Assembly: GCA_003058495.1 (NCBI GenBank)
Contig: QBVC01000032.1
Span: forward strand, 1 to 64,000
DNA: 64,000 bases
Direction of reading: 5' to 3'
From: a gamma proteobacterium symbiont of Ctena orbiculata
GTDB lineage: Bacteria > Pseudomonadota > Gammaproteobacteria > Chromatiales > Chromatiaceae
The notes under the pieces were generated by a model. The model did not search any database, was not told the DNA's origin, and worked only from the letters and a program-made list of their open reading frames with translations. Position numbers and translations under genes: made by a program. Each line of letters begins with the position of its first letter. The stretch's first letter is position 1. Positions 1 through 15,212 of this stretch are shown one piece after another.

Positions 1-3000
1 TGAAGCTGTCGCTGAGGTTTTCCGTACCGTCGTGGGTATAGCTGAAGGTACCGTCGCCATTGAGGGTCAGGGCGCCGTTAGTGGCATCCGTCACCAGGCT
101 TACCGCTACCGGGGTATCGACCAGGCCGGTGTCGTTGTTCAATACGGTGCTGAAACCGCCGTCCAGGGCGGTAGCTGTGCCACCCTCAGCCAGGGTGATA
201 TTGTCAGCATTAGCAACAGGGGTGGTGTCGCTGACCAAAGTAAAATTAATGGTCGCCGCAAGGGTGTTGGAGTCTGTATCGCCGTCGTTGACGGTGACGC
301 TGAACGCCGGTGCCGTCTCATCGCCATTGTCGACAAACTGCACCAGGCCACCCGTCAGGTCGGCGCTGGTAAAGGTGGTAATGGGCGTTCCGGGAGCACC
401 GCTCGACTGAAAGTAACCACCTGAGATACCACTCACTGTGTAGTTGAAGGCGGTATCGTCCGCATCGGTGATGGCAAAGTCGGCATCACCGAGAGTGAAG
501 GTCTGGCCTTCATCCAAGGTGAGTCCGGCACTCGTGATCAGCGGTGCATTGTTGCTGCCGTTGACGGTAATGGTGACCGTCGCGGTAGCGAAACCTCCGT
601 TGCCGTCACTGATCTGATAGCTGAAGCTGTCATCCACGCTGCCACCGGCGCCCAGTCCGTCAAACTGACCGTTGGTGTTGTAGGTATAGCTGCCATCGGA
701 TTGAAAGGTGACTTGCGCGCCCGAAGCCAGGGTCAGCGGAACACCTGGGGTGTAGGCTCCCCCTTCGACCTGGGTTACCTGCAGTCCATCTCCCTCCGGA
801 TCGCTGTCCACGCCGGATCCGGAGTCATCCGTGATGGCGTTGCCTGAGACAAAGCCGCTTTCAGAGACGAAGTTGGCATTATCCGACGCTGTGGGTGCGT
901 CATTCTGCGGATTGACGGTGATCGTCGAAGTCGCGATTGGACCCGTCAGGAGCGAGCTGTCCTGGGCAAAAATATTGATCGTGCGGTCACCCGCTGTCGG
1001 GTCCTGAGACGTGTTCTCATAGCTGACACCCCGCAACAGGGACTGCAGATCGGCTTCCGGCATTACCCCGCCGCCATCCCTTGTGACATTGAAGCCGGTG
1101 CCATCGAAATCGATTACAAAACCAGTGCTGCCCACAGTGCGGGTTTGGATTTCACCCGTACCATAGGTGAAGACATATCCCGCTATTGTGATCTGTTCGC
1201 TGGCGCCATCCGGGAAACCCACTAGATTGATGCTCAGGTTCTGATAGGTTGTATTATCGACATCGCTGATCGTCGCGTCCGTATCCACCACATTGACAGC
1301 CCCGGCGTCTTCCGTGAAGGTGACAGCGAAATCTGTGCCCGTACCATCCGAACCGTTCAAATCCACCACCGGCGCATCATTCACCGAACTCACGTTCAAG
1401 GTGAGATTCTGCGTCACGCCGGCACCGCCGTCGCCATCGGTTATGTCGATGGTGACACTACGCGTGCCGCCGGCAGGATTCTCCGCATTGCTGTTTTCAT
1501 AGGTGATATTGCGAAGCAGCGCGGTGACCGCGGCGGGCGTCGCGTTTGCATTGAAGGCCACGGTCAACGGATTTATACCTGTGCCTCCGGTCACGCTCCC
1601 GATCACCAAACCGCTGTAGCTCACATCACTGCCGTCAAAGCCGATCTCACCGCCAGCCGTGCCCTGGTTGAATATGGAGAACCTGTCCTCCGCGGCCTGT
1701 AGGCCGCTATCGACCTCGACAGTGAGCGAGCCGCCTGCAAAATCACCCGAGTCGGGATCGCTTACCGAAACATCACCACCCTGCTCGATCAGAACCACAC
1801 CGTCCCCTTCCGTATAGTTGCAGACGTCCCCGTCGAGACCTGTTACACCGGGCGCGTCATTGACGGGCGTATAGCCGACGGTGGCCACCAGGGTATTGGA
1901 ATCGCTGACGCCGTCATTCACGCTGACACTGAAACCGGGAGCGACCTCGTCACCATCATCCACAAACTGCACCACGCCTGCGGTCAGATTCGCACTGGTG
2001 AAGGTGGATATTGGCGTACCGGGATTGCCGCTCAGCTGGAAATAGCCATCTGTCACGCCACTCAGGGTGTAGGTAAAAGAGGTATCATCCGGATCGGTGA
2101 TGCTGAAGTCGGCAGCCGACAGGGTGACAGTCTGACCTTCAGACAAGCTGATCCCGGCGCTGTCAACAGTCGGCGGCAGATTTGCCAGCTCCGCAATGTC
2201 GGTGGAGGTTAAGGCACGGCTGTATATCCTCACCTCGTCGATAAGCCCATTGAAGGGATTCACAATACCGGCACCGAAGTCATCGATCGATCCAATCTGC
2301 ATGTCATCGATGAAATCGACGCTGCTGAAAAAAGCCGAGGTACTTGAGCTGCCGTTCAAATAGGTAATCGCCGCACCTGTCAGCTGCACGCCATCGACAT
2401 AAAGATTGTTGCCGCTGCCGTCGACGGTTACCGCCACATGATGCCAGGCACCGTCATTGATAGGCGTATCTGCTTCGACATTCAGCAGAATCCCCGGACC
2501 CATATTTTCCACGAAGAAAAACAGCTCGCCATTGTCCACTCCCAGGTCCGCTTCGTTCGGGCTTGATCTGTCATAAATGGAAAAGATGTGCTGAACGGCT
2601 GAACTCGTGGTATTGATCCAGGCTGAAATCGTACCCTGGGTCAATCCCGAGAAACTGGAGACATGTGTCGATAGATTGACATAGTCATTGATGCCGTCGA
2701 GAGACAGTTTACCCTCGCCGACGATATCCGTAGCGTCATTGGTATCGATCGCCGCGCCGTTGCTCAGGGTTCCGTGATAGCTGTTGCCGCTCGAATCCGC
2801 AGCATTCGCATCAAACGCCCAGTGGCCCATCAAACCCGTTGTGATATCCAGTGTGTGTTGGTAGTTTTCTTGAAATGAAGCGCTCGGCGCCAACACCGTC
2901 TCAATGCTGCCGCGGCTAAATTCCAACTCCCAATCGCCGTTCTCATGGGAGAATCCAGTTAAGTCCGTGGAAGCGGCGACATCGGCGCCGGTCAGGGCGG

Positions 3001-3577
3001 CGAATTGCTCGATGAAGTGTTCACCGGATCTAGTGGCGGCAATATCGCAGCCATAGATCAACCAGTCGCCATCGTTGTTGAGCGCCTCGCCCCAGGCCGC
3101 AATCCGCTCCGCCGACTGTTGCAGTGCCTGCAGGTCGAGGCTCGCATCACCCAGCCGCATCTCCCCCTCACCACCGTGACTGATCAGGTGAATCGCATCC
3201 AGACCCCGGTATTCCGCCAAAATTTCACTGAGCTGGTCTATGCCGTTGCCGCCGGCGTCGAGCAGCACCACCTCGAAACCGCGGCCGCCGCTATCGCGAC
3301 TGACCAAATCATCGAGCAGGGATTGATAATCGGGTGTCGCCGGATCGATAATCACCAGTTCCCTGGTCGGTGAATCGGATAGACCGGATTGGGCTTGAGT
3401 GCCGGTCTGCAGTGCCGCTTCGATGACCTGGAGATCGGCTTCGTCATCCGCTTGCTCCGTATCGTTCGGGATCGGATCGACCGCAACGCCCACCAGGTCG
3501 GCGGAGAGCAGTAGGCGGGGCTCCAGCTCTTCACAGACCAGGGTACCGGATCGACTGTTGCAACGCCTGCGTCTCAT
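1..3577 (-). CDS. Giant DUF4347 / LamG / cadherin-like repeat surface protein (3' end off window)
   Basis: The start ATG at 3577 overlaps the previous gene's stop as ATGA, and the frame stays open for 1192 codons to the left edge. The N-terminus is arginine-rich, then carries LEPRLLLSADL near residue 18, the motif that often opens large DUF4347 adhesins. Residues about 70-240 are DUF4347-like (HLISHGGEGEMRLG; DWLIYGCDIA). A LamG/concanavalin-like domain follows at about 246-460 (GLMGHWAFD to VRIYSRALT). The rest is a chain of cadherin/VCBS-like beta units; two are close copies, about 472-570 and 1014-1112, sharing DGYFQ/GGYFQ and VQFVD.GDE.AP.FSV. No classical signal peptide is seen. By family these are exported, calcium-dependent surface or adhesion proteins. 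The HlyD-type genes directly upstream suggest one-step export (inference). Domain calls come from reading the translation. Partial at the C-terminus. Confidence 0.9.
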   Translation of the reverse strand, partial: MRRRRCNSRSGTLVCEELEPRLLLSADLVGVAVDPIPNDTEQADDEADLQVIEAALQTGTQAQSGLSDSPTRELVIIDPATPDYQSLLDDLVSRDSGGRGFEVVLLDAGGNGIDQLSEILAEYRGLDAIHLISHGGEGEMRLGDASLDLQALQQSAERIAAWGEALNNDGDWLIYGCDIAATRSGEHFIEQFAALTGADVAASTDLTGFSHENGDWELEFSRGSIETVLAPSASFQENYQHTLDITTGLMGHWAFDANAADSSGNSYHGTLSNGAAIDTNDATDIVGEGKLSLDGINDYVNLSTHVSSFSGLTQGTISAWINTTSSAVQHIFSIYDRSSPNEADLGVDNGELFFFVENMGPGILLNVEADTPINDGAWHHVAVTVDGSGNNLYVDGVQLTGAAITYLNGSSSTSAFFSSVDFIDDMQIGSIDDFGAGIVNPFNGLIDEVRIYSRALTSTDIAELANLPPTVDSAGISLSEGQTVTLSAADFSITDPDDTSFTYTLSGVTDGYFQLSGNPGTPISTFTSANLTAGVVQFVDDGDEVAPGFSVSVNDGVSDSNTLVATVGYTPVNDAPGVTGLDGDVCNYTEGDGVVLIEQGGDVSVSDPDSGDFAGGSLTVEVDSGLQAAEDRFSIFNQGTAGGEIGFDGSDVSYSGLVIGSVTGGTGINPLTVAFNANATPAAVTALLRNITYENSNAENPAGGTRSVTIDITDGDGGAGVTQNLTLNVSSVNDAPVVDLNGSDGTGTDFAVTFTEDAGAVNVVDTDATISDVDNTTYQNLSINLVGFPDGASEQITIAGYVFTYGTGEIQTRTVGSTGFVIDFDGTGFNVTRDGGGVMPEADLQSLLRGVSYENTSQDPTAGDRTINIFAQDSSLLTGPIATSTITVNPQNDAPTASDNANFVSESGFVSGNAITDDSGSGVDSDPEGDGLQVTQVEGGAYTPGVPLTLASGAQVTFQSDGSYTYNTNGQFDGLGAGGSVDDSFSYQISDGNGGFATATVTITVNGSNNAPLITSAGLTLDEGQTFTLGDADFAITDADDTAFNYTVSGISGGYFQSSGAPGTPITTFTSADLTGGLVQFVDNGDETAPAFSVTVNDGDTDSNTLAATINFTLVSDTTPVANADNITLAEGGTATALDGGFSTVLNNDTGLVDTPVAVSLVTDATNGALTLNGDGTFSYTHDGTENLSDSF

Positions 3578-4770
3578 TGCACGACGATCCTGGTCTCTAT
3601 ACCCAACCCAGCAAGTTGCTTCCGGTAGTTGTCAGCCACCCTGCGGTTTCTGAAATAACCCAGGGAGATATGCCCTTTCAACGACCCCCTGGCGATCACA
3701 TAGGTATCCTCCACACCCTTCTGCTTGAAGGACTCCGCCTTATGCAGCGCCTTTTTCAGCGGTAGCAGCGAATCCTGGGATATGACCAAGTAGCGCGCTT
3801 TGTTGCCAGCCTTTCGCTCGCCGTCCTCGGCGGCCAGACTGCCGGCCTGCTTCGAATCCGCTGCAGCAGTCTCGGGTATATCCGCCGCCTCGGTAGACGG
3901 CCTGCTGCCGACAGCCGCATCAGGCCCACTCTCCACGTTGGTGTCGGGCTCCATCTCCACCACTTTATCGAGAAAACTGACCTGGCAACGCAGCCCGCTG
4001 GTCAGGCTGTAGTCGTCATTGGGTATCTCCAGGCGGATGCGGAAGGTGCCGCTGGCCGCATCGAGAATCGGATCGACGATCTTGACCACCGCCTGATGAC
4101 TTCCACCGACAGGCAGCTCGGGTGTGACCAGGGCCAATTGACCGGTCTTGACCTTGCCCAGCAGGGTGATCGGCGCCACGACCTCGACCCGCAGGGGATT
4201 GATCCGGGCGATTTTGATGATGGGGCGCTCCTCCACGGACTCGCCCGGGTTGAGATAGCGCTCGACCACGATACCCCCGATTGGACTGCGTATGGTATGG
4301 CGGTTGTAGAGGGCCTCGGCCTGTTTCAGATCGAGTTCCGCGAGGAACTTGTTCTCTTTTGCCTGGGCCAGCCTGTAGCGGGTCAAGCGGGTCTCTGTCT
4401 CGACCTTGTCGAAATCCTGAAACGAGGAGAGATTTTTTTCGTGCAGCTCCTTGACCCGGCTCAACTGCCGCCGTCCGTAGGCGAGACTGACCTCCTGCAG
4501 ACGCACATCGCTGTTGATCGACGCCCTGGCCCGGGCGTACTCCAAGGCGGCCTGTTCGACCTCGGATTCCAGTTTGGCGATGACCTGGTGCTTCTCTATG
4601 CGGTCCCCCACATCCACGGAGACGGCCTCGAGGATGCCGTCGATGCGGGAGCTCAGCTCCACCGACATGGAGGGTTCGATGACGCCGTCAAATTTTTCGG
4701 ATCCCTCCGCAATACAGATTGTCGATAAGAGGCAACTCAGGCCCCCAAGCAGTAACCGCCATTTACGCAT
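3574..4770 (-). CDS. HlyD/RND-type periplasmic adaptor with C-terminal SPOR-like domain
   Basis: A 398-residue protein with an N-terminal signal peptide or anchor (hydrophobic residues 5-21). It then shows a membrane-fusion-protein layout: a first half-lipoyl segment near 40-70 (SSRIDGILEAVSVDVGDRI), a helical hairpin at about 70-155, the second half-lipoyl (TIRSPIGGIVVERYLNPGES) and a beta-barrel. The last 75 residues after a linker (about 325-398) look like a SPOR domain (YLVISQDS, YVIARGS, LGYFRNRRVADNYRKQL, IETRIVVQ). SPOR domains are known for binding denuded peptidoglycan, so the adaptor may be tethered to the wall or septum (inference). The gene overlaps the giant adhesin gene downstream by four bases (ATGA), so the two are almost certainly co-translated. 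A 250-base gap separates it from the M50 gene upstream. No clear ribosome-binding site is seen before ATG 4770. Confidence 0.88.
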   Translation of the reverse strand: MRKWRLLLGGLSCLLSTICIAEGSEKFDGVIEPSMSVELSSRIDGILEAVSVDVGDRIEKHQVIAKLESEVEQAALEYARARASINSDVRLQEVSLAYGRRQLSRVKELHEKNLSSFQDFDKVETETRLTRYRLAQAKENKFLAELDLKQAEALYNRHTIRSPIGGIVVERYLNPGESVEERPIIKIARINPLRVEVVAPITLLGKVKTGQLALVTPELPVGGSHQAVVKIVDPILDAASGTFRIRLEIPNDDYSLTSGLRCQVSFLDKVVEMEPDTNVESGPDAAVGSRPSTEAADIPETAAADSKQAGSLAAEDGERKAGNKARYLVISQDSLLPLKKALHKAESFKQKGVEDTYVIARGSLKGHISLGYFRNRRVADNYRKQLAGLGIETRIVVQ

Positions 4771-4913
4771 GTCGTTTTTTATTCACCCTGTTACCCACAC
4801 TCGCTGCAAGGATGATAGAGACAGGGTAAATTTAATGATTCTTATTCCCATTCAATATCACTATCTTGCTAGATATGTTTCGGGTGAAGGCTCCATTTCT
4901 TGACCCGCAAAGC

Positions 4914-4936
4914 GTGACAATCCATGCAAATGTCAC
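4914..4936. promoter_or_regulatory. Perfect inverted repeat, candidate operator
   Basis: GTGACA at 4914-4919 and TGTCAC at 4931-4936 are perfect inverted copies separated by 11 bases. The site lies in the 250-base gap between the M50-HlyD gene and the HlyD-SPOR gene, about 145 bases upstream of the latter's start. The position suits an operator for an internal promoter driving the adaptor and adhesin pair. The regulator is unknown; the spacing does not match the CRP half-site spacing of six. Confidence 0.4.
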
Positions 4937-5020
4937 AATTTACGACCCCTATTCCCAAATTCACTTGATTTTTGCAGGGTTTATTCCCGATGACCCGGCG
5001 AATGCCGCAACGGGCGCCTA

Positions 5021-7141
5021 TCAAATGTTAAAACGCTTGATAAACATCTGCCGCAGGGAACGGTACCATTGCCAGCCAAGGGGTTCCGGCGGGTGCTGAA
5101 AACGGACTGTCACCCGCTCTCCCATTCGGCTGATCCGGCGATTCAACTGCAGGCGTATCTCAAACACGGCCTCCAGGGGCCGCGTGCCATCGGTGTCGTC
5201 AGGATGGAGGGTGAATTCACCGCCCCCCTGGCTGCCCAATGCGGGACTGGGCAGCCGTTGCCGGGACCCGGGTATGTCGCGCAGCAGGGTGACAGGTAGA
5301 TCGACCTCAGGCCTGTCGGCGTAGCGTGCCCCGATGTTTCGGGTGGCACCGCGCACCAGGCCGATCGCCTGCTGCGACACAGCCACCCGGATCTCCGGCT
5401 GTCGCTTATCCAGCACATGGCCGATCAGCTCGCCCTGGCTGACGAACCGCCCCGGCAGATCCCCCGGCTGCTGCACCAGGAAAGTCCCCTCGACAGGACT
5501 GAGGAGCAGAAGCCGCTCCGCCTGCTCCCGTTTATGTGCAAGCTCGGTCTCCAGCAGGCGAATCTCATCCAGCAGAATCTCCGCTTTGACCGTTTTGCGC
5601 TCGCTGACGAGCACCTCATGCTCCGCGCGCAAGGCATTCATCTGTCCCGCCAGCCGTTTCAACTCGGTCCGAAGCAACGGATCCTCCAGCGCCACCAGGG
5701 GCTGGTTACGCTTAACCTGGGTGTCGGGTGTGGCCAACAGTTCCACAACCTCCCCTTCCGTGCCCGCCCTCACCTCGGTACCGTCGGGCGGCAGGACAAC
5801 CCCGACCGCATAGGTGGCGTGGGGAGCGGGAATGATGAGTAGAATCGACAGCAGCGAAGCCAATATCCCAGCCGTGGCCAGCACTGCCCGCCTGCGCCGC
5901 CTGGCAAGCCGCGGACTGACGAGGAGAAACCTCAGCTGTCTGATCAGGGGCAGCACGACCATACCGGCCAGGGCCCAGAGCGCAATCGCCCAGCCCACCA
6001 GGGGATAGCGCTCGGCCACGAACAGCATGATCGTGATCAGAATGAACCAGCGATAACAGAACGCGGCAATACCGTAGCAGATAAACCAGCCCCGTTCCCA
6101 GTCGTTGTGGGCCGGTGATTCCGCATCCTCCAGGTCGTAGAGATAGCGCTGTAGCAGATATCCCAGATAGCGGTTGGCCCGTGGCGAGAGGTTGGGGATG
6201 TCGAGCAGATCGGCGAACACGTAGTAACCGTCAAACCTGAGCAGGGGATTTCCGTTGACCAGCAGCGTGGAGAGACCGCCGATCAGCATCATGTTGTAGG
6301 CTGCGGCATTGAGCCAGCCAGGCCCGGTGGCCAGCCAGAGCCAGAGCCCGAGGCTGGCAAGCAGCAGTTCCGTCATGATCCCCGCCGCACCAACCGCGAT
6401 CCTCGCCCGCCGCTCGCTGAAACCGCCGGCTGCGGAGGCGTCCACATAAGGCATCGGAATCAGCGCCAGCAACAGCACCCCAACCTGATGGACCTCGCCT
6501 CCCCAGTGCTTGGTGGCAAATCCGTGCGCCGCCTCGTGGAACAGCTTCATCAACAGGTATGCCGACCCCATCAACAGCAGGTTGTCCGCCGAGAGAAGCT
6601 GGCTGGTCAGATTGCGGGTGATCTCCTGCCAATGCAGCGCCGCCTGCAGCAGCCCGCTCGACACCAGCAACAGCCACAACCCGAGCCCGACCCGGCTGAA
6701 CAACGGCTGGACCGCCGGCAGCAGCCCGCTCAGCACCCTGTCCGGATCCCACAGCGGGATGCGCAGGGAGAGCGGATTGCGCAGCTGTTGCAGCCACTGC
6801 CGCGGCTGTTTGCGGCGCTCGAGAATTTTCAGCCCATCGCCGTCGGGGTCACGCATGAGCACCCCACCGCCCTGCAGCTGCATCAGCAGGCGTATGAAGT
6901 CGTCCCGTGCCGGTGGCTCAAGCAGCCGCTGTTGCCCCTGATGCCAGATCGCCTCGAGCGTCAGCCTGCCGTCGAAGCGGCTGATCAGCTGGTAGGCCCC
7001 GGGGGAGAGGCGAAACTGGCGCTCGCTGACAGGGTCCTGCAGGAGATACCAGGTCTCGCCCTGATAGGGCTGCCTGCGGATCACAATCTGCGGATTGAGA
7101 CGGGGACGCGCAGCGGCGATCTGCTGCCAAAGTGCGTCCAT
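5021..7141 (-). CDS. Membrane M50 metalloprotease fused to HlyD-like adaptor, with PqqD-like N-terminus
   Basis: I chose ATG 7141 (706 residues) because it abuts the stop of the upstream gene (TGATG) and gives MDALWQQIAAARPRL; a GTG 63 bases earlier is also in frame. Residues about 15-100 resemble a PqqD-like domain (YLLQDPVSERQFRLSP; GAYQLISRFDG). A multi-span membrane region holds the zinc motif HEAAH at residues 202-206 and NPLLRFDGYY around 298-307, the site-2 (M50) protease signature. After the last membrane span, near residue 450, comes a HlyD-like segment: half-lipoyl (GTEGEVVELLATPDTQVKRN), coiled coil, second half-lipoyl (LLSPVEGTFLV), beta region. Intact metal ligands argue for an active intramembrane protease. 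The fusion suggests cleavage or handling of an exported substrate, plausibly the DUF4347 protein encoded downstream (inference). It ends 250 bases before the HlyD-SPOR gene. Confidence 0.9.
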   Translation of the reverse strand: MDALWQQIAAARPRLNPQIVIRRQPYQGETWYLLQDPVSERQFRLSPGAYQLISRFDGRLTLEAIWHQGQQRLLEPPARDDFIRLLMQLQGGGVLMRDPDGDGLKILERRKQPRQWLQQLRNPLSLRIPLWDPDRVLSGLLPAVQPLFSRVGLGLWLLLVSSGLLQAALHWQEITRNLTSQLLSADNLLLMGSAYLLMKLFHEAAHGFATKHWGGEVHQVGVLLLALIPMPYVDASAAGGFSERRARIAVGAAGIMTELLLASLGLWLWLATGPGWLNAAAYNMMLIGGLSTLLVNGNPLLRFDGYYVFADLLDIPNLSPRANRYLGYLLQRYLYDLEDAESPAHNDWERGWFICYGIAAFCYRWFILITIMLFVAERYPLVGWAIALWALAGMVVLPLIRQLRFLLVSPRLARRRRRAVLATAGILASLLSILLIIPAPHATYAVGVVLPPDGTEVRAGTEGEVVELLATPDTQVKRNQPLVALEDPLLRTELKRLAGQMNALRAEHEVLVSERKTVKAEILLDEIRLLETELAHKREQAERLLLLSPVEGTFLVQQPGDLPGRFVSQGELIGHVLDKRQPEIRVAVSQQAIGLVRGATRNIGARYADRPEVDLPVTLLRDIPGSRQRLPSPALGSQGGGEFTLHPDDTDGTRPLEAVFEIRLQLNRRISRMGERVTVRFQHPPEPLGWQWYRSLRQMFIKRFNI

Positions 7142-8889
7142 CAGCCCCACCAGCGCCACAGTTGCAGGCGCAGCCAATCGATCACGCGATGAGTGGCAAG
7201 CCACAGCAGGCTACGCCGGCCCGCGTCGATTTTGGCCACTCCCTGCAGTCCCGGCCGCAAATACTCATCCCCATCCGCGAGTTCCGCTTCGAGGGTGAAC
7301 AGATAGCTCCCTTCAATCGCCGCTGTCAGAGGCAGAATACGTTTCACATTGAATCCGTGATCGAGATGGGGGTAGCCCGCCAGGCGCAATCGGCCCGACT
7401 GACCGACCTGCACATCGGCGATATCCCGCTCATCGACCTGCAGCATGACCCGATAGCTATCGAGCGGCGCGATCTTGAACAGCTCCTCTCCCCGTTTCAT
7501 GGGGGCGCCGAGGGACTGGCTGAGGTCCCCGCTTACGATAACGCCTGAAAGGGGCGCCTTGATACGGCTCCTTTCAAGTTTCATCTCCACCAGTTCGAGC
7601 TCGGCCCGCAACTGCTGCGCCTGTGCCTTAAGCACGGTCACCTTGCTGCGCTCATGGGTTGCCATCGCCTCGCGTTGCTCGCGTTCCAGCTTTGCCAGCT
7701 CGGAACGCCATTTGGCCTGCTCAAGGGTCAGATCCTTGTCGTCCAGCCGACAGAGCAATGCCCCCTCGGCAACGATGTCGCCCGCCTTGACCGCAACATC
7801 CTGCAGATAGCCGTCAAACGGGGAGGTGATGACCCGCTGTATGCGGCCCTCCAGATTGGCCCGCGCATCGATCCGGTAATCACTCTTGACCACGCCGGAG
7901 AGAACAAGCATTGCCCCCAGACCGATCAGCCCCAGCTTCAACCACAGCCCCTGCGGACCGAGCCAGTGTTGCAGCCTGTTTCCCAGGCGTTCTCCGAGCA
8001 GGCGGTGAAGGGGACGCTCGTTACGCTGCTGTTGATAGAGCAGCAGCCCGATCAAACCGGCTGCCTGGATAGATTCCGCTTGTTCGGCAGGGGTGAACGG
8101 CTGCTCTCGATGGCGTTCAAGCAGAAGCGCGCCGACCGGCAGCCCTGCTGCCTTCAGCGGAATCGTACACAGCGTCGACCGACCGACCATCCCGGCCAGG
8201 TCCTGCTGGCAGCGCAGCAGCAGATCGCGCTCTGCCGTCACGGCAGGATAGTGCAGCAGCGCCTGTTGATCGACGGCCTCGAACATCGCATCCTTGATGG
8301 CCCGCACCAGGCCGGTTTCCCGCTTGATCTCGATCCTGGGGTAGGTGGCCGAGATCTCGAGCCGGCGCGGGTCCCCCAGTGCCAGGGTTACCCGGTCGCA
8401 CTGAAACCTTGCGGCGAACAGCTCGACAGCCCTCGCCGGGTCCAGCGGACCCTCGGTCAACCCTGCCAGCCAGTGGGCGGCGGCCGCCTCACTTCCGCCG
8501 GCCTGTTTCAACAACAGCCGCAACCAGTGCAGACTCCACTGCAGGGCCTGCAATGCCGCCTTCTGTTTGGCGGCCGGGCGGCGACTGATGCTCAATGCGA
8601 CGGCGACATTCGGCTCTCCACCCAAGATCAGCGGCATCGCTATATGGTCGCAGCCCCCGGTTGCCTGTCCGGCAGCGGGGACGATCATCTGCCTGCGGGT
8701 CTCGCGCGCCTTGAGCGCGGCCTTCAGCAAGGCCTTTCCCGGTTCCACCTCTTCCGGCCAGCGTACGACACTGATCCGCCCGTGCGCCTCGGCGCCTTTC
8801 TCGATGACAATAGCCGACTGGATGCCGCTGATTAAACGGCACAGTTGCTTCAACCACTGCTGTATCACCACCCGTGAAGATGCAGGCAT
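7141..8889 (-). CDS. GAF-domain HlyD-type membrane fusion protein
   Basis: ATG 8889 (582 residues, MPASSRVVIQQWL) is preferred over an in-frame GTG at 8952, since similarity to a cytosolic regulatory region begins here; the ribosome site is weak either way. The first 320 residues are soluble and include a GAF-like region (about 140-300; PLKAAGLPVGALLLERH). A single membrane span follows near 330-350 (LGLIGLGAMLVLSGVV). Then come HlyD features: half-lipoyl (VITSPFDGYLQDVAVKAGD), helical hairpin, second half-lipoyl (RIKAPLSGVIVSGDLSQSLG) and beta-barrel. A cytosolic GAF sensor joined to a periplasmic adaptor implies ligand- or redox-gated export (inference). It overlaps the M50-HlyD gene by one base, so the two are translationally coupled. 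It is the first gene of the cassette; its promoter should lie in 8890-9033. Confidence 0.88.
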   Translation of the reverse strand: MPASSRVVIQQWLKQLCRLISGIQSAIVIEKGAEAHGRISVVRWPEEVEPGKALLKAALKARETRRQMIVPAAGQATGGCDHIAMPLILGGEPNVAVALSISRRPAAKQKAALQALQWSLHWLRLLLKQAGGSEAAAAHWLAGLTEGPLDPARAVELFAARFQCDRVTLALGDPRRLEISATYPRIEIKRETGLVRAIKDAMFEAVDQQALLHYPAVTAERDLLLRCQQDLAGMVGRSTLCTIPLKAAGLPVGALLLERHREQPFTPAEQAESIQAAGLIGLLLYQQQRNERPLHRLLGERLGNRLQHWLGPQGLWLKLGLIGLGAMLVLSGVVKSDYRIDARANLEGRIQRVITSPFDGYLQDVAVKAGDIVAEGALLCRLDDKDLTLEQAKWRSELAKLEREQREAMATHERSKVTVLKAQAQQLRAELELVEMKLERSRIKAPLSGVIVSGDLSQSLGAPMKRGEELFKIAPLDSYRVMLQVDERDIADVQVGQSGRLRLAGYPHLDHGFNVKRILPLTAAIEGSYLFTLEAELADGDEYLRPGLQGVAKIDAGRRSLLWLATHRVIDWLRLQLWRWWG

Positions 8890-9033
8890 GCTCCGAAAAA
8901 CTCCAATGATTCCAGGGGGGCCGTAAGTAAGCATCCAACAGGCCCTAATCACTATTTTCGGTAATCCGGAGGATATCTTTACGCAGAGGCCGCTCGCGCC
9001 CCGCCTGACCGCCGCTGCGGTTGATGGTTGCTG

Positions 9034-9468
9034 CTAGTGATAGATCTGGCGAAAACCGGCTTCGGAGAAACCATTCATCCTGCGCTCTCCCACCAGGATG
9101 ATCGGTACGCCCCTACCCCCCAGTCTCTTATAGTCACGCCTGCCTTTTTGGCTCGTCTCAACATCGTATTCCACAAAGGGGATGGCATTTCGCTTGAAAT
9201 ATCGACGGGCCTTTTTGCAGTAACCGCACCTTTTCGTGCTGTACATCACCACCTTTTCACGAGCGGAAGCGGCACTGGACTTATACTTTGGCGCCTGATA
9301 GAGGTTAGGTTTGACCGTGACGGGCTCAGCCTCTTCCTCTGCCGGCGGCCGATCACCAAAATGGATCTTACCCTTCTCATCCCGCCACTGATAGATGGCG
9401 TCCGCACTGACGGATCCTGCCGCCATTACAATAAGCGTGAACCCCATAATCAAATGAAACGGTCTCAT
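9034..9468 (-). CDS. Periplasmic DUF4124-glutaredoxin fusion protein
   Basis: ATG 9468 is preferred because AAGGAAG sits five bases upstream; a GTG two codons earlier is also in frame. The 144-residue product has a signal peptide ending near ADA (residue 25). It then has a DUF4124 segment (IYQWRDEKGKIHFGDRPP) and a glutaredoxin fold with the active-site CGYC and the GGRGVPIILVG cis-proline region. Both active-site cysteines are present, so it should catalyse thiol-disulfide exchange or deglutathionylation in the periplasm. The combination is recurrent in gammaproteobacteria, but its substrate is not established. It precedes the export cassette on the same strand by about 145 bases. Whether it shares that transcript is unclear; it could help fold exported proteins (inference only). 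Confidence 0.88.
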   Translation of the reverse strand: MRPFHLIMGFTLIVMAAGSVSADAIYQWRDEKGKIHFGDRPPAEEEAEPVTVKPNLYQAPKYKSSAASAREKVVMYSTKRCGYCKKARRYFKRNAIPFVEYDVETSQKGRRDYKRLGGRGVPIILVGERRMNGFSEAGFRQIYH

Positions 9469-9550
9469 TGTCACTTCCTTTTTACACCATGAGCATGAGT
9501 CGCAGCACGGTCGACGAAAGTCGGGTTTCTGCTGCCTTGCAACGGCCTGA

Positions 9551-10588
9551 CTAGTGCCGCAACTCGAGCAGTTTCGCCGCCACTCGTCCCGACTCGAACA
9601 GTCTCCCCGCCATCTCTACCCCCGCCCCGATATCATCAACCTTATTGCCGAGGTAGAGCCTGACCCCCGCGTTGTAGAGAATGGCATCGAGATGCCGGTC
9701 GCTTTTTTGCGTCAGCGCATCCTCGACGATACGCGCGGTGGCATCCACCGACTCGCAGGGGTGATGAGGACGGTGACTAAATCCGAAATCGGCAGGATCG
9801 AGCATATATTGAGCGACCTTGCCGTCTTTATAGTCGGCCACGGCCACCGCTTCCATCGGCAGCTCGTCACAGCCATCCAGCCCCTGCACCGCCATCACCC
9901 GCTGCTGGCCCCGTTCTCCGGCGGCGCTGGCAAAGCGCTCGAGGAAGCTTTTATGGGCGGCGCCCAGCAGTGAATAGGGGGCGGCCGCGGGATTGAGCAT
10001 CACCTCGCAGGCGTGGAGAAAGGATCGATAGAAGAGCGTCTGGCGGATCGGCTTCAATCTCTCCACACCGTGCAGATAGCAGCTGGCGTGCAGATGGCCG
10101 AATCCCTTCTCCTCGATATCCCTCGATACCCGGGCAGGCTCCTGATAGGCGGGGATGCCCAACGCCTCCAACAGCCGCGCGGTGGTGACGCCATCCTTGG
10201 GCGGCAATCCGCTGCTGGAGTGCATCACCACCGGCAGACCTGCCGCGGCGGTGACAATCGCCGCCGCCAGACTGAGATGGAGGGCGTTCTTTCGCCCGTC
10301 GTAGGGGCCGTTGCAGTTCAGCAGGCCATCGACCCTGGGGGCGATCAGGGTTGCGCTCGCCTCCATGGCATCGAGAAAGCCCTTCAACTCCTCCACCCGT
10401 GCCCCCTTGAAGCGCATCGCGGTGAGAAAGGCCCCGACCTGGGCCGGTTGCGCCTCGCTGGAGAGCAGGAAGGTCAAGGCCTCGCGCGCCTCCTCGCGGC
10501 TCATATCCTTGGCCCCGCGGGGCCCCTTGGCGGTGGCGATCAGGCGTTTGCGAAACCGCTCGGCAGCCTTACTCCCCGGTTGTTGCAT
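9551..10588 (-). CDS. TrpD2/YbiB-like protein (anthranilate phosphoribosyltransferase fold)
   Basis: A 345-residue protein with the helical N-terminal domain and alpha/beta C-terminal domain of the nucleoside phosphorylase/TrpD family. The glycine-rich phosphate region is altered: LLNCNGPYDGRKNALHLSL replaces the canonical TrpD GTGGD-type loop, as in the TrpD2 (YbiB) branch. Members of this branch lack tryptophan biosynthesis activity and bind nucleic acid in E. coli. The start ATG 10588 has AGGAG eight bases upstream. No trp genes are nearby, which agrees with a non-tryptophan role. The gene lies 90 bases downstream of the haem-oxygenase-fold gene on the same strand and could be the third gene of an oxyR-led transcript (inference). 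Confidence 0.85.
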   Translation of the reverse strand: MQQPGSKAAERFRKRLIATAKGPRGAKDMSREEAREALTFLLSSEAQPAQVGAFLTAMRFKGARVEELKGFLDAMEASATLIAPRVDGLLNCNGPYDGRKNALHLSLAAAIVTAAAGLPVVMHSSSGLPPKDGVTTARLLEALGIPAYQEPARVSRDIEEKGFGHLHASCYLHGVERLKPIRQTLFYRSFLHACEVMLNPAAAPYSLLGAAHKSFLERFASAAGERGQQRVMAVQGLDGCDELPMEAVAVADYKDGKVAQYMLDPADFGFSHRPHHPCESVDATARIVEDALTQKSDRHLDAILYNAGVRLYLGNKVDDIGAGVEMAGRLFESGRVAAKLLELRH

Positions 10589-10678
10589 TACTCAGCTCCT
10601 GGCGAATCCCATGCCGCAGTGTCAAGGCTTTTTCAATGTATGTGCGGCTTGCCGCACCGGTTCTTGGCTTATGATGAC

Positions 10679-11929
10679 TCAGACCGCATCAGCGAAGACA
10701 AACGGCACACCCTTGCCGGCCTTGTAGTCCGACGCATTCACCACCCGGCTCCCGGCCACCTCCTGACGGGCGGACAGCAGGGCCTCCTCGATACGCCGGT
10801 CAGTGACATGGTAACGGGCATCGAGCCCGACGGCGTCGATGTCGGCACAGGGCTCGGTGAACAGCTGCCGGTAGAGATCGCTCATCATGTTGTAGCGGCT
10901 CGACATCAGCATATTGGTCGCCTGCTTGATCTGCTGCATGGTCTCCTGCTCATGGCCAAACAGGCTGGTCGCCAACATCACCGAGATGGCGTGCAGCACA
11001 TCGTATTGAACATGGGCGATGAAGACGATCAGGTGACGCTGGGTCAACGCCACGTCCTCCCGCCAGGCCCAGCGGATCATGCCGCCGAGCAGCAGACTGA
11101 AGAACTCGGGCACCCCCCACTCCATACCCAATCCCACGGACGCCATGGACTCCACCAGGCTGAACGAAGGGTGGCCGGCGAGCAGGCGCTGGGTGAGCAC
11201 ATTGTCGGCGACGCCGTGGAGCATGGGCACATCCTGCTTCTCGAAGGGGACGCCCAGGCCCTCGAAAAGCTGGCGGTACATGACGATGTGGGTGGTGGAG
11301 TTGAGCAGGCTGGAGAGATCCGGGTAGCGCTCGATGCTGTGGGTACCCACCCCGTACTCATCGGCCAGCAGCTGCGCCAGGATGATCTGCGCCAACTCCG
11401 ATACCCGTTCGTTGAGGCAGCCGTAGGGGAGAGGAATGAAACCGGAGAAGCGTCCCTGCGCCAGGGCCACGCACTGGCGGGTGTTCTTCACCTGGTTGAA
11501 GTAGTTGGTGGCGAAACCGCGCAATTGCGGCGCATCGAACCGGGCCTCGAAGATGCGCACGAAGCAGGGGTGGCTCCAGACCGGATGCGACATCACATGT
11601 TCATGGAGTTCGAGGAACATCGCCTGCAGCGCCCCCGGCCTGAACAGATCCAGTTCACCGAATCTGTTTGCAGGCTCCCTGTCGGCGATGGCCCGCATCT
11701 CGGCAAACAGCCTGTGCAGCGAATTGCCGTCCGCCTCCAGTTCGTCGATCACCCGGGTGAAGTCTTCCAGCTGACTCACCCGGAAGGCCTCGAGTACCTG
11801 TGCGGCGTCCAGGGAGAGCAGATCGGGCAGCGGATGCACCCCGGGCAGCAGGGTCGGGCTGCCGTCGCCATCGAGTTGCAGCAGATCGGAGAAGCGTCGC
11901 GTACTATCGCTGGAATTCGCGCTGGACAT
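10679..11929 (-). CDS. Iron-containing redox enzyme family protein (haem-oxygenase-like fold)
   Basis: A 416-residue soluble protein. After a variable 110-residue N-terminus it has an all-helical domain typical of the haem-oxygenase-like di-iron (HDO) group. Candidate ligands include LHEHVMSHPVW near 128-138, an EYGVGTHSIERYPD stretch near 190-203, and HLIVFIAHVQYDVLHAI near 315-331. Family members bind non-haem iron and activate oxygen or act on small molecules; the reaction here is unknown. It starts 12 bases after the oxyR stop, so the two are almost certainly co-transcribed, tying it to peroxide stress. Alternatives are a TenA/PqqC-like enzyme or a ferritin-like scavenger. Ligand assignment was by eye. 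Confidence 0.75.
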   Translation of the reverse strand: MSSANSSDSTRRFSDLLQLDGDGSPTLLPGVHPLPDLLSLDAAQVLEAFRVSQLEDFTRVIDELEADGNSLHRLFAEMRAIADREPANRFGELDLFRPGALQAMFLELHEHVMSHPVWSHPCFVRIFEARFDAPQLRGFATNYFNQVKNTRQCVALAQGRFSGFIPLPYGCLNERVSELAQIILAQLLADEYGVGTHSIERYPDLSSLLNSTTHIVMYRQLFEGLGVPFEKQDVPMLHGVADNVLTQRLLAGHPSFSLVESMASVGLGMEWGVPEFFSLLLGGMIRWAWREDVALTQRHLIVFIAHVQYDVLHAISVMLATSLFGHEQETMQQIKQATNMLMSSRYNMMSDLYRQLFTEPCADIDAVGLDARYHVTDRRIEEALLSARQEVAGSRVVNASDYKAGKGVPFVFADAV

Positions 11930-11941
11930 AATTATCGATCA

Positions 11942-12856
11942 TCAAAGTTTACGGACTATATTCGGCAACTGAGACTGGATGACACCTGCCAGGACCTCGA
12001 TAGCCTTCTTGCGTGGAAAGGTCTTCCTGTAGACAAACTGCACCCGGCGAAAGGCGTCCTTGATGTGCAGTTTTCTGGCGATGATCCCCGAATCGGTGGT
12101 CCAGCTCCCCCGAATCGCCAGGGCCGGCACCAGGGTGCAGCCGAAGCCGGCACCCACCAGTTGCAACAGGGTCTCCAGGCTGGCGGCCCGCAGGTCGGCC
12201 ATCTCGTTGTCAATGGCACCCTCCTTGATGCGGCAGACATCCATTACCTGGTGGGTCAGGCAGTGTCCGTCGGCGAGCAGCAGCAGGTTGATCTGGCTCA
12301 GATCACGGCGGCTGATCTCGTCTTTGTCGTAGAGCGCATGATTCCTCGGGTGGGCCAACCAGAAGGGCTCCTCGAACAGGGGCATCACCTCCAGCTCGGG
12401 TTCGGTCACCTCGGTGGCCAGGATCGCCACATCGATCTGGTGATCCAACAGGCGCTGGCTCAACATATCCGTGATCTCTTCAGAGAGAATCAGCCGCATC
12501 TGCGGGTACTGCTCCTTGAGCGGCATCAGGATCAGCGGTATCAGGTAGGGGCTGACCGTCGGGATGGCCCCCACCCGCAGCGCGCCCGCCAGGGGATCCC
12601 GCTGTGCCTGGGCCAGCTGCTTGATCACATCGGCCTGTTCCAGTATCAGCTTGGCGTGTTTTACGATCTCCAGGCCGATGGGCGTGGTGGAGACCGAGCG
12701 GTTGGTGCGTTCGAATATGGTGACGCCCAGCTCCTGCTCCAGCTTCTTGATCTGTCCGCTGAGGGTGGGTTGACTGATATAGCACTGCGCGGCCGCGTGG
12801 CCGAAATGCTCGGTCTCGGCAACGGCAATCAGGTATTTCAGGTCGCGCAGATTCAT
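11942..12856 (-). CDS. oxyR: OxyR-type LysR regulator, peroxide sensor
   Basis: With the start at ATG 12856 (MNLRDLKYLIAVAE) the product is 304 residues, close to the usual 305. It has an N-terminal winged helix (HFGHAAAQCYISQPTLSGQI) and a LysR effector domain. The redox pair is intact: Cys199 in ADGHC and Cys208 in MDVC, at exactly the E. coli OxyR positions, and SLETLLQLVGAG matches the following helix. It should sense hydrogen peroxide by disulfide formation and activate antioxidant genes. Unusually, the downstream neighbour is an iron-containing redox enzyme rather than ahpC, katG or recG. A palindrome (12907-12925) about 50 bases upstream suits autoregulation. An in-frame upstream start seven codons earlier is less likely. 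Confidence 0.93.
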   Translation of the reverse strand: MNLRDLKYLIAVAETEHFGHAAAQCYISQPTLSGQIKKLEQELGVTIFERTNRSVSTTPIGLEIVKHAKLILEQADVIKQLAQAQRDPLAGALRVGAIPTVSPYLIPLILMPLKEQYPQMRLILSEEITDMLSQRLLDHQIDVAILATEVTEPELEVMPLFEEPFWLAHPRNHALYDKDEISRRDLSQINLLLLADGHCLTHQVMDVCRIKEGAIDNEMADLRAASLETLLQLVGAGFGCTLVPALAIRGSWTTDSGIIARKLHIKDAFRRVQFVYRKTFPRKKAIEVLAGVIQSQLPNIVRKL

Positions 12857-12906
12857 GAGAGTTATCGGCTCAATCAATCACTGGACTGATAATACCTTAG
12901 TTGACC

Positions 12907-12925
12907 CTATCGTTGCCAATGATAG
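12907..12925. promoter_or_regulatory. LysR-type box upstream of oxyR
   Basis: CTATC at 12907-12911 and GATAG at 12921-12925 are perfect inverted arms around nine bases. This contains the ATC-N9-GAT form of the LysR-family T-N11-A box. It lies 51-69 bases upstream of the oxyR start, where LysR regulators usually bind for autoregulation. It shares CTAT/ATAG half-sites with OxyR operators, though the full four-half-site spacing is not present. Confidence 0.5.
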
Positions 12926-12946
12926 ATATCAATCAGATCCCGGCTG

Positions 12947-12977
12947 AAAAGGCCGCCCTGACATTGCCGGGGCGGCC
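12947..12977 (-). terminator. Candidate intrinsic terminator downstream of bacteriohemerythrin
   Basis: GGCCGCCC (12951-12958) and GGGCGGCC (12970-12977) form a perfect 8-bp stem with an 11-base loop. On the minus strand the hairpin is followed by TTTT. It lies about 235 bases after the bacteriohemerythrin stop and just before the oxyR promoter region. Confidence 0.55.
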
Positions 12978-13212
12978 CACCGATAACGGGGCCATGCGCT
13001 GGACCGACGTCTGACTCGGTTCATCTGCGGCTTGTTCCTGATTGCCGTCGACAGCTTGCTCGAGGCCTTCGGTTGCACCGAAGGTGTTGAGAATCTAGTA
13101 GCCCAACCCGGTATAGCTGCCTGGAATTTACTTGCGCCGGTAACCTATATCTCGATCTGGAGCAGAGACCTGTAGCTGCATCCAGTGAAATCCATGCGGA
13201 CCGGAAAGAGGG

Positions 13213-13677
13213 CTAATGGCGGAAAAACCTAGCGAGGGAACGCGATAAAAAACCGCGCTTCTGTCTGTTGCTGTCGAGATCGGACAGGGATGCCTTCACG
13301 CTGGCCACATAGGCGGCATCATCGTTTTGGATATGACTGAACAGCCATCTTGACAACAGGCCGTGCAGCTCTTCAGAGATATCCTCGCCCTCATCAAAGC
13401 GCTGCTTGAACTCGCCGACGCGCCTTATGAAGAGTTCATGCACACGCTTATGCGGTCGCGTGAACTCATAGCCGGCATCCTCCAGCAACGTCTCCTCGAA
13501 ACCGAAGTGGGAAACAGTATACTCCACAGTGTCTTCAATGACCTTGCCTATTACGAAGCGGTTCTTGGTAAACCTCGCATCGTCGAGTTTATTAATATAA
13601 TCGACGATCTGCTTGTGTTGACCATCGATGACATCGATACCCGTTTCCAGGCTTTTCAACCAGACCAGATGAGCCAT
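13213..13677 (-). CDS. Bacteriohemerythrin
   Basis: A 154-residue four-helix protein with the di-iron, oxygen-binding hemerythrin signature: GIDVIDGQHKQIVDYIN, then HFGFEE, HKRVHELF and FSHIQNDD, supplying the usual histidines and carboxylates. Bacteriohemerythrins bind O2 reversibly and serve in oxygen sensing, storage or delivery. The C-terminal extension is short and basic, and no signalling domain is attached. It is probably a single-gene transcript; the nearest upstream minus-strand gene is almost 500 bases away. Its position beside oxyR may reflect a shared oxygen/peroxide theme (inference). Confidence 0.93.
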   Translation of the reverse strand: MAHLVWLKSLETGIDVIDGQHKQIVDYINKLDDARFTKNRFVIGKVIEDTVEYTVSHFGFEETLLEDAGYEFTRPHKRVHELFIRRVGEFKQRFDEGEDISEELHGLLSRWLFSHIQNDDAAYVASVKASLSDLDSNRQKRGFLSRSLARFFRH

Positions 13678-14086
13678 GGGTTTTTACTCTCAACAATCTT
13701 CCGTAATACTGAAAATGGCCGTTCCACGAGCCAATCCCAGCCTTCCCGTTGAAGATTAATAACATACAGCGATGAGCCAGGTAAACACCAAACACGACAA
13801 AACACAGGCATTTCAGTAGTTTCTGAGCCAACTATAAGGTCACCTACTACCTTTTAATAGTTTAATTCCCGGCAAATACCCTGCAACGTCCGCCCCGATC
13901 CAGCCAGCACCGAAGACCATGACAGCGATCCAGGGCCTGACAGCACCAGGCAGACAATCCGCCAAGCGACCCTGATATTGAGTTGCTTTGAAGATGTGGA
14001 GAAACGCGAGCAGAGCGCTATCGATTGAGTTGAGCAATGCGGATCTATCCCAGGGGATAACAGGAGCAGGCGTGAAGACACAAATG
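13678..14086. other. Non-coding gap, no gene supported
   Basis: This stretch lies between the bacteriohemerythrin start and the terminator of the MopE-like gene. It contains only short overlapping minus-strand frames of 65-96 codons with no recognisable family and no good ribosome sites. The bacteriohemerythrin promoter should be here; I see no clear consensus. Confidence 0.5.
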
Positions 14087-14108
14087 AAAAAGGGGGCCGA
14101 AGCCCCCT
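14087..14108 (-). terminator. Intrinsic terminator of the MopE-like gene
   Basis: Read on the minus strand, GGGGGC, TTCG loop and GCCCCC form a perfect 6-bp GC stem (14092-14107) followed directly by five T residues (14091-14087). It lies about 50 bases beyond the stop at 14160. A textbook rho-independent terminator. Confidence 0.85.
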
Positions 14109-14159
14109 GTATGTCAATGCCATGGAGATGGCTTGCTGAATCAATCAGATCAACGGATT

Positions 14160-15212
14160 TCAGCTACGGGATTTACGCGATTTGCGATCTTCGTCGTCGC
14201 AGTCTTTCTGCTCGCGCTCTTCATCGTCATGCTCGTCTTCATCATCCTGTTCATCTTCGTCGTCACGCTCGTCTTCATCATCCTTCTCGTCTTCCTCGTC
14301 GTAATCATCTGATGAATCGTCGTCGTTAGCGTCATCATCCCGGCACAACTTCAGATGGTGGTGATCACGCTTGCCTTTGGATCGCCACCAAGGCATTTCA
14401 CACTCGTCGTCACCGCCATCACTGTTTTGACAGACACCGTCTGCGGAATCGGAAAGTCCGTTACAGTTGTTGTCGACTCCATCATCGCAGACTTCCAATG
14501 CCCCGGGATTGACATCCGCATTGGTATCGTCACAATCCACGGCGCCGCAAGCACCACCCTCGACACTGTAACCATCGGCATCACCATCGGTACACTCAAG
14601 CGGGCAGTCCACTGCATTCGAATCCGCGGTATCAACGAGGCCGTTACAGTTGTTATCGATCTCATCACTGCAGATTTCATCCGCACCAGGATTGATAGCG
14701 GGATTGTTGTCATTACAGTCTATGGCGCCGCAGGAGCCACCTTCCACCGCATATCCATCCAGATCCGAGTCGGTGCACGCAACAGGACAATCGACGGCGC
14801 CCGGGTCGGCAGCATCGACCATGCCGTTGCCATCGTTATCGATGCCATCGGTGCAATCTTCGGGGGCGCCGGGGTAGGCCGCAACGTTATTGTCGTTGAA
14901 GTCGGCCTCGGTACCGCAGCTTTCGCCTTCCGCATAGTAGCCATCGCCGTCACTATCGGTACAGGTCGTCGCCACCGGCGCGGGGCAGAAGTACTCATAG
15001 TTTCCTGTACTGTATGCACTCTTTGCCTGGTTATCCCCATGACAAGCTGTACAGCTGTCCGCCTGGTAGGCAGACAGCAGATCATAACCCATACTGTTGC
15101 AACCGTTGATGATATCGTCTTCCATATAACCGTAGGCGTTTACATCATGGAAGGCTGTTAACGAAAATGCGCCTAGCATCAAAGCAGCCAGGCTCTTCTT
15201 ACCAAATATCAT
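14160..15212 (-). CDS. Secreted MopE-type metal-binding repeat protein with one c-type haem motif and acidic tail
   Basis: A 350-residue protein with a signal peptide ending near VNA (residue 26). A short domain carries CTACH at 54-58, a single covalent haem c motif. Three repeats of about 62 residues follow (starting near 84, 146 and 208), each with a CTDSDGDGY-like start, DC(N/D)D.N...NPGA.E.C and D.IDNNCNGL. These match the putative metal-binding motif of Methylococcus MopE, and the D.D.DG loops also resemble calcium-binding sites. After a basic HHHL patch the C-terminus is almost pure Asp/Glu, including four DDEDE(R/Q/H)-like units, then a basic end. A good ribosome site (AGAGGAA) precedes ATG 15212. 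It is a single transcript with its own terminator. Role unknown: copper or calcium binding at the cell surface, possibly with electron transfer, is inferred. Confidence 0.85.
   Translation of the reverse strand: MIFGKKSLAALMLGAFSLTAFHDVNAYGYMEDDIINGCNSMGYDLLSAYQADSCTACHGDNQAKSAYSTGNYEYFCPAPVATTCTDSDGDGYYAEGESCGTEADFNDNNVAAYPGAPEDCTDGIDNDGNGMVDAADPGAVDCPVACTDSDLDGYAVEGGSCGAIDCNDNNPAINPGADEICSDEIDNNCNGLVDTADSNAVDCPLECTDGDADGYSVEGGACGAVDCDDTNADVNPGALEVCDDGVDNNCNGLSDSADGVCQNSDGGDDECEMPWWRSKGKRDHHHLKLCRDDDANDDDSSDDYDEEDEKDDEDERDDEDEQDDEDEHDDEEREQKDCDDEDRKSRKSRS
14211..14282 (-). repeat. Four 18-base tandem units encoding acidic tail
   Basis: Four 18-base units lie end to end in the 3' part of the MopE-like gene: 14265-14282 (DDEDER), 14247-14264 (DDEDEQ), 14229-14246 (DDEDEH) and 14211-14228 (DDEERE). 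Unit number could vary by slippage between strains. Confidence 0.8.

Follow-up and report, generated by a model that had tools for sequence, protein, structure and literature searches.

The DNA considered here is a stretch of 64,000 nucleotides (hereafter the window) from the genome of a gammaproteobacterial symbiont of Ctena orbiculata (GenBank assembly GCA_003058495.1, contig QBVC01000032.1, positions 1 to 64,000 of the forward strand), and its subject is a putative protein export cassette at the left end. In the list of open reading frames (ORFs), positions 2-8952 of the minus strand are filled by four genes, encoding a GAF-HlyD protein, a protease-adaptor with PqqD-like, M50 and HlyD parts (PqqD/M50-HlyD, hereafter M50-HlyD), an HlyD adaptor, and the 5' part of a giant protein with DUF4347 and cadherin-like domains. 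An earlier note, made from the letters of the sequence, had described this set at these positions with overlaps of one to four bases between genes 1 and 2 and genes 3 and 4; the overlaps are exactly one base (TGATG, joining the stop codon of the first gene to ATG 7141 of the second) and four bases (ATGA). The likely start of the GAF-HlyD gene is ATG 8889, because its homologues open with MPASSRVV or similar. The giant gene is truncated at the edge of its contig (C20), since position 1 of the window is the first base of the contig. An 893-residue C-terminal piece of a giant, in frame and running off the start of another contig (C27), is taken, by homology alone, to be the end of the window giant, the two pieces not being joined. 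The features of the cassette are as follows.

7141..8889, minus strand: GAF-HlyD membrane fusion protein (ORF from GTG 8952; likely start ATG 8889)
8077..8430, minus strand: GAF domain of GAF-HlyD (Pfam, residues 175-292 of the ORF from 8952)
5021..7141, minus strand: PqqD-M50-HlyD membrane protease-adaptor (start ATG 7141)
6860..7042, minus strand: PqqD-like domain at the N-terminus of the protease-adaptor (the window fragment matches Pfam PqqD at 0.0028)
6524..6538, minus strand: HEAAH zinc-protease motif (H206, E207, H210)
6230..6232, minus strand: presumed second metal-ligand Asp (D308), in the motif NPLLRFDGYY
5261..5830, minus strand: HlyD/MexA-like adaptor domain fused to the protease (AlphaFold2 model, Foldseek, profile match)
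4771..5020, minus strand: spacer where other loci hold a SecA-like gene (no SecA relic found)
3574..4770, minus strand: HlyD adaptor with an N-terminal hydrophobic stretch and a C-terminal SPOR-like extension
2..3577, minus strand: giant LEPR/DUF4347/LamG/cadherin protein, 5' part, cut by the contig end
3473..3532, minus strand: LEPR-XLL N-terminal motif, proposed export signal (NF012209)
2849..3358, minus strand: DUF4347, caspase-like domain with a His/Cys pair (PF14252, 1.8e-52)

The PqqD, M50 and GAF matches of the window proteins themselves all fall under the Pfam cut-offs, and HlyD is strong in genes 1 and 3. In the GAF-HlyD protein, HlyD_D23 and HlyD_3 match at 1.3e-18 and 2.7e-15 in Pfam, while the GAF match, 0.013 in the window protein, reaches 6e-13 in homologues and is clear at the loci L142, L116 and L084. 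For the protease-adaptor, a PqqD match at E<=0.05 is found in 38 of 40 N-terminal domains of relatives, and the N-terminal domain gives a profile match to the solved PqqD 3g2b (E 0.0033). Both hallmarks of Peptidase M50, the HExxH motif and a downstream Asp, are present in the window protein, and H206, E207, H210 and D308 are invariant in 76 of 76 M50-HlyD sequences; the role of D308 as the second metal ligand is assumed from knowledge of the M50 family. The AlphaFold2 model of the protease-adaptor has a mean predicted local distance difference test (pLDDT) score of 90.1, and its adaptor part resembles MexA/MacA-type adaptors both by Foldseek (E about 1e-11 to 1e-10) and by profile match. Foldseek is silent on the PqqD and protease parts because the 50 matches shown are almost wholly adaptors of this type. 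The third gene matches TIGR01730 at 3.5e-34 and SPOR weakly (E 0.082). Its C-terminal extension is common to the four aligned rows from the genus of the window's organism (hereafter the window genus); as a mark of that genus alone it was rejected, longer HlyD proteins being found elsewhere, for instance at L090 and L102. An apparent HlyD-giant fusion at L033, L038 and L040 was also rejected, as the frames cross masked stretches of N.

The N-terminus of the window giant carries a domain that the earlier note had not named, LEPR-XLL (NF012209), which scores 25.3 bits, over the curated cut-off of 17. At giant N-termini the motif has the consensus LEPR(L/I/Y)LLSAD. An alignment anchored on E.R took in N-termini of 56 sources. 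In the 53 that passed the score, Glu is found at -3 in 46, Leu at -1 in 47 and at +4 in 50, Ser at +6 in 43, Ala at +7 in 51 and Asp at +8 in 48, counts that describe the motif rather than prove it because near-copies from the window genus and a double count of L149 and L208 are included. The score itself favours a Leu-type residue at -1, Pro at +1, a hydrophobic residue at +3 and a nearby SA, DA or AAD, and Glu at -3 is the sole column untouched by this selection. The test of the motif is instead provided by searches with NF012209, a curated model made outside this analysis. Motif-bearing open frames extend, stop to stop, to 15,371 codons, or to 15,884 with a weak motif.

The motif and the M50-HlyD gene occur together across genomes. 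In a class set of 274 genomes, with the motif called as NF012209 at E<=1e-3 and M50-HlyD at E<=1e-60, M50-HlyD is present in 17 of 19 motif genomes versus 18 of 255 without the motif (p 1.4e-15), and in a second order (196 genomes around G308) it is present in 8 of 9 motif genomes versus 8 of 187 others (p 2.4e-9), or in 7 of 8 versus 8 of 187 when the centre genome G308 is removed (p 2.6e-8); all of these p values overstate independence, because the genomes are related and each is counted as independent. The threshold of E<=1e-3 was used for the main count because a loose E<=0.1 admits short ORFs resembling chance, and the comparisons were made outside the Planctomycetes and Verrucomicrobia. 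Five genomes of the order set with a motif ORF of >=900 residues (G385, G414, G431, G472 and G517) were considered as motif genomes lacking the cassette, a candidacy that was rejected since a divergent M50-HlyD is present in them, on another contig in G385 and split across two frames in G517; G414, G431 and G472 are in the divergent M50-HlyD profile by construction, and G385 and G517 are not. Among control genomes, LEPR-XLL is found in 1 of 14, that of Deinobacterium chartae.

Approached from the other side, cassette genomes taken from named loci carry the motif at E<=1e-3 in 26 of 29 cases, with one more at 0.0016, a check rather than an independent test, as these genomes were picked by hand, in most cases because a giant-like neighbour was present, and the motif had already been seen in at least five. 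The genes are also adjacent: among the motif ORFs entered, there are 26 cases of a motif ORF and an M50 gene on the same contig, 22 of them within 10 kb. Some genomes have several motif ORFs, and one such ORF lies 609 kb from its M50 gene, arrangements that would be expected were one machine to serve many giants. For instance, G273 has five LEPR motif ORFs, G330 six (two of them weak) and G141 two; in G273 and G141 some are on a contig other than that of a detected M50 gene or 609 kb off, and may be orphan substrates.

DUF4347 was rejected as the defining mark of the substrate, as the linked giant of L148 has no DUF4347 in the aligned stretch. The earlier note, which had defined the giant by DUF4347, was right that the window giant carries it (177.9 bits versus a curated cut-off of 24.6), but the N-terminal LEPR motif makes the better link. 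The DUF4347 model is poor (pLDDT 64), with weak fold matches to caspases (E 1.5e-4, template modelling score about 0.3) and to 9qpe, and a protease role is only plausible; residues 1-69 of the giant, including the LEPR motif, are modelled with pLDDT <50. The structure 9qpe, the Hcp3-Tce1 complex of Pseudomonas aeruginosa type VI secretion, belongs to the same DUF4347 family and shares the ..HG.. and ..YGCD.. residues, but represents a free-standing effector, whereas the window DUF4347 is a domain of a giant. Tce1 is presumably PA0256. The available text of PMC8262886 places DUF4347 in PA0256. The symbiont's own genome also encodes, on contig C5 (L002 1357-1875), a free-standing DUF4347-like protein of 172 residues with HTHG and GC residues, which is unlike the giant and resembles effector-type DUF4347. 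At the opposite end, giants of the window genus, L048, L142 and L148 have a similar hydrophobic segment followed by a charged tail, possibly a retention anchor; the segment is unclear in L168 and in the upstream giants whose ends were seen.

The cassette neighbourhood, whose conservation the earlier note had made a check on its proposal, recurs widely in other genomes. Among 56 relatives, 24 have an M50-HlyD match at E<=1e-3, some to the adaptor part only, and 20 regions were read. A collection scan, with a query led by a SecA-bearing relative, gave 587 confirmed relatives; the best 80 of these, together with tree labels, place the cassette in Alpha-, Beta- and Gammaproteobacteria, Thermodesulfobacteriota, Myxococcota, Deferribacterota and Nitrospirota. 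By the first profiles, the best 80 of 587 loci include GAF-HlyD in 77 and a SecA-like gene in 78; each of the three that lack a GAF-HlyD match, and one of the two that lack a SecA-like match, is at a contig end. In a set of 115 M50 loci, of which 106 are strong and some are near-copies (L046 and L104 cover one and the same stretch), GAF-HlyD adjoins M50-HlyD in 103 of the strong loci and the other three are at contig ends, while HlyD is present in 71, absent from 17 and untestable in 18. A SapC-family gene lies within the cassette in 20 of the 106 strong loci, and DUF3467 is nearby in 30. At L118, L119, L126, L139, L143, L149 and L150 the SapC gene sits between the M50 and SecA-like genes.

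The earlier note had pointed to the lack of an ABC (ATP-binding cassette) ATPase and of TolC, and this bears out for the ORFs scanned: neither is found in the four upstream ORFs (9034-12877), nor in seven ORFs of C27, where those unscanned include several of <300 residues. Upstream lie genes for a glutaredoxin/DUF4124 protein, a glycosyl transferase family 3 protein, an unassigned 416-residue ORF and a LysR regulator. Beyond the left edge, where a conventional ABC exporter operon would have refuted the earlier note, a PAS-GGDEF-EAL protein and then ApbE follow the piece of C27 taken as the giant's end, to the extent that the contigs permit, an order also seen in the relative L035. Around the best 80 loci, 98 same-strand ORFs of 120-760 residues include SapC 12 times, DUF3467 seven times, OEP four times and ABC_tran once; in 87 ORFs on both strands of about 380-740 residues (25 longer ones of 112 were dropped) OEP is again found four times, and ABC_tran is not among the 25 families listed of 130. 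Other contigs of the symbiont's genome hold four OEP genes and one weak partial OEP match. At the divergent loci L168, L169 and L173, TolC, two HlyD-type proteins and M50-HlyD are grouped together, L168 additionally holding a giant that starts LEPRMMFDGA, and TolC adjoins giants with an LEDR start in L179 and L183 and an LEPRIML giant in L181. An Omp85-family match was seen in 4 of 27 ORFs scanned near divergent loci.

The usual additional partner of the cassette is a SecA-like gene, present in 85 of the 101 strong loci that could be tested, a share that may be inflated because a SecA-bearing locus stood first in the gathering query. It is absent from 16, of which 12 are of the window genus, and untestable in five more; none of the nine weak loci shows the gene (six absent, three untestable). 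Thus a cassette with no ATPase, as the earlier note described, is true of this genus and some other loci, but is not the common arrangement. In all four SecA-like proteins examined, Pfam lists SecA_DEAD, preprotein-binding and P-loop parts and no wing or scaffold family. The alignment covers residues 16-604 of a solved SecA chain of 778, so the last quarter of SecA, which holds the two-helix finger, is missing. This short form is found among the 56 relatives only in G022, G026, G032, G042 and G043, and in 16 of 30 motif- or M50-positive class genomes. No SecA relic was found in the 250-base spacer 4771-5020 of the window. In a tree of 114 M50 rows, built by a quick method with a midpoint root and long branches flagged, the 14 rows of the window genus form one group (SH-aLRT, an approximate likelihood ratio test, 100), nested in a group of 103 rows (SH-aLRT 96; nearer inner branches 89-94) of which 83 have a SecA-like gene; given the starred branches, the SecA label must have changed four times or more. 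By this tree, the window-genus M50-HlyD shares descent with SecA-bearing loci, and such nesting makes loss of the SecA-like gene in the genus the likeliest reading. Strict dependence of the system on SecA was rejected, since SecA-less loci exist in the window genus and elsewhere.

What is established is the gene order with its conservation, the association of motif and cassette, their adjacency, the catalytic residues and the absence of the SecA-like gene from the window cassette. The reading that best accommodates these observations, and in our judgement the probable one, is that an ABC-free exporter of wide distribution moves giant surface proteins bearing an N-terminal LEPR(L/I/Y)LLSAD signal, and that the window cassette derives from it but has no SecA-like gene. 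In the route we infer, from recognition and cleavage through export and its polarity to retention and the source of energy, the PqqD domain of the protease-adaptor would bind the LEPR leader of the giant, a role proposed because PqqD-type domains bind leader peptides, and cleavage of this leader by the M50 site would take place at the inner membrane. Across the periplasm, the three HlyD adaptors would make a passage to a TolC-type channel whose gene lies elsewhere, and the giant would emerge through it N-terminus first, to be held in the window genus by its conserved C-terminal hydrophobic segment. The usual energy source would be the SecA-like motor ending before the last quarter of SecA; in the window genus, housekeeping SecA is the simplest candidate for the driver.

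The earlier note had known of no described mechanism for this combination of genes, a statement overtaken by the literature, as the locus is already published. In the available text of Kamneva, Poudel and Ward 2015 (PMC4452313), GAF-HlyD, M50-HlyD and HlyD genes are described around a secondary SecA_DEAD gene. It is proposed there that SecA_DEAD is the ATPase and that M50 provides the pore, while the role is called "completely unknown" and no substrate is named; 'LEPR' and 'cadherin' do not occur in its main text. One of the loci it names is META1p2402-2399 of Methylorubrum extorquens AM1. As far as that text goes, the window cassette resembles the published locus in its GAF-HlyD, M50-HlyD and HlyD set and in that no ABC transporter was found, but differs in having no SecA_DEAD gene; an OEP gene is sometimes near such loci. 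In the literature found, LEPR-XLL appears, in the text available, in passing mentions only, and none linking it to the cassette locus was found by a search thin on subscription journals. The machinery was already known; as far as these searches tell, the substrate class, the candidate signal, the PqqD domain, the SapC and DUF3467 partners and the SecA-less branch are added here. The window cassette is thus real and conserved, and offers a good candidate for the missing substrate and signal of the published locus.

Other known systems share parts of this arrangement. Accessory SecA2 systems dedicate a second SecA-like ATPase to surface proteins, and most cassettes too have a SecA-like ATPase, but theirs matches only residues 16-604 of 778 and is partnered by HlyD adaptors and a membrane protease. 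Type I secretion (HlyB-HlyD-TolC) shares the HlyD-type adaptors, the exit of presumed TolC type and giant repeat-rich substrates; it differs in its ABC transporter, none of which was found beside the cassette in the ORFs scanned next to it, and in its signals, which are C-terminal in the accounts available, whereas that proposed for the cassette is N-terminal. The daptide metalloprotease family NF041824 matches residues 35-419 of gene 2, its PqqD-like and M50 parts, but at 151.7 against a cut-off of 300; gene 2 adds an HlyD domain, and the proposed substrate of the cassette is a giant, not a peptide.

Several observations weigh against the proposed exporter of LEPR giants. Under a strict rule, with limits of 2.5 kb on the upstream side and 4 kb on the downstream side, 43 of the best 80 of 587 loci have a giant-like ORF, which makes an adjoining giant common rather than universal; the rule misses some giants (L127, L148 and L156), and many, not all, of the remaining loci are on short contigs. 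In the class set, 18 of the 35 M50-HlyD genomes have no motif at E<=1e-3, some of them with weak hits, and two motif genomes have no M50 protease match by the searches used, G246 and the fragmentary G110 (adaptor part only), both carrying a divergent LEQR form of the motif. The genomes of the window genus hold only housekeeping-size SecA frames and no short form (in G013, contig-end fragments only). Finally, a Vibrio LEPR-XLL giant of about 8000 residues has, according to the available text of PMC10868602, C-terminal RTX and serralysin domains, which fit ordinary type I export.

The last of these, the Vibrio giant with its RTX ends, also favours the best surviving alternative, in which the giant is exported by housekeeping type I (ABC) or Sec machinery and the cassette, controlled by cyclic di-GMP, only serves to anchor, process or release it at the cell surface, much as adhesin-retention systems do. 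The GGDEF/EAL regulator adjoining the giant and the conserved hydrophobic C-terminal segment of the genus giants are consistent with such a role, but three adaptors and, in most loci, a SecA-like ATPase favour an exporter over an anchor, ABC genes are rare near cassettes (1 of 98 ORFs), and the motif association is repeated in a second order, leaving this explanation unlikely. A poorer prospect is that the cassette acts on some other, small substrate, for example a peptide that PqqD/M50 proteins mature, with the giant a chance or co-regulated neighbour. PqqD domains are peptide-binding in a peptide-maturation setting, and among NCBIfam models gene 2 matches the daptide intramembrane metalloprotease best, under its cut-off. 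Against this stand the genome-wide association of the motif, the adjacency of motif ORFs to M50 genes, and the lack of a recurrent peptide-maturation gene among the neighbours surveyed (radical SAM appears in 2 of the 98 and in 3 of the 87 ORFs, overlapping sets with small ORFs outside the survey), so we regard it as improbable. Least credible of all is a decaying remnant left after loss of the SecA-like motor, which would account for that gene not being found in the genus, but M50-HlyD is matched strongly in 14 of 22 genus genomes with frames open where read, other SecA-less loci exist, and a low ratio of nonsynonymous to synonymous change (dN/dS) of 0.14-0.20 in the three machinery genes, two comparisons each (dS 0.35-0.91, dN 0.06-0.16), points to purifying selection on a SecA-less cassette that is still used.

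Further features of the window and its relatives lie outside the cassette. A TamA-like protein (POTRA_TamA_1, Omp85) is encoded at 48600-50324, and the adjoining ORF of 1265 residues at 44839-48636 may be TamB. Positions 20227-26292 encode a hybrid histidine kinase of 2021 residues with five solute-binding (SBP_bac_3) stretches, and 14160-15212 a protein with three MopE-type copper-binding motifs. In the case of L189, a large ORF just after the cassette (12654-16001) has a weak BapA_N prefix-like match and is a possible second adhesin. The proteins encoded at L035 13273-16284, L048 10709-13612 and L049 13030-14535 open with similar N-termini that lead into PAS-GGDEF-EAL, histidine kinase or GGDEF parts, a likeness that suggests a shared sensor.

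Returning to the proposed exporter, a broader reading, which we advance tentatively and rate somewhat below the export proposal for the window, is that the cassette represents a distinct route for the largest bacterial proteins, in which PqqD would read LEPR, the PqqD-protease-HlyD protein would replace the ABC transporter, one motor could stand in for another (a SecA-like one lacking the final SecA domains, or no dedicated motor), and several unlinked LEPR giants in a genome would share one machine. In keeping the cassette but not the SecA-like motor, the window genus offers a natural experiment. The substrate class and short candidate signal make the role of the secretion locus of 2015 testable, and the proposed route may explain how proteins of 5,000 to 15,000 residues exit from the cell.

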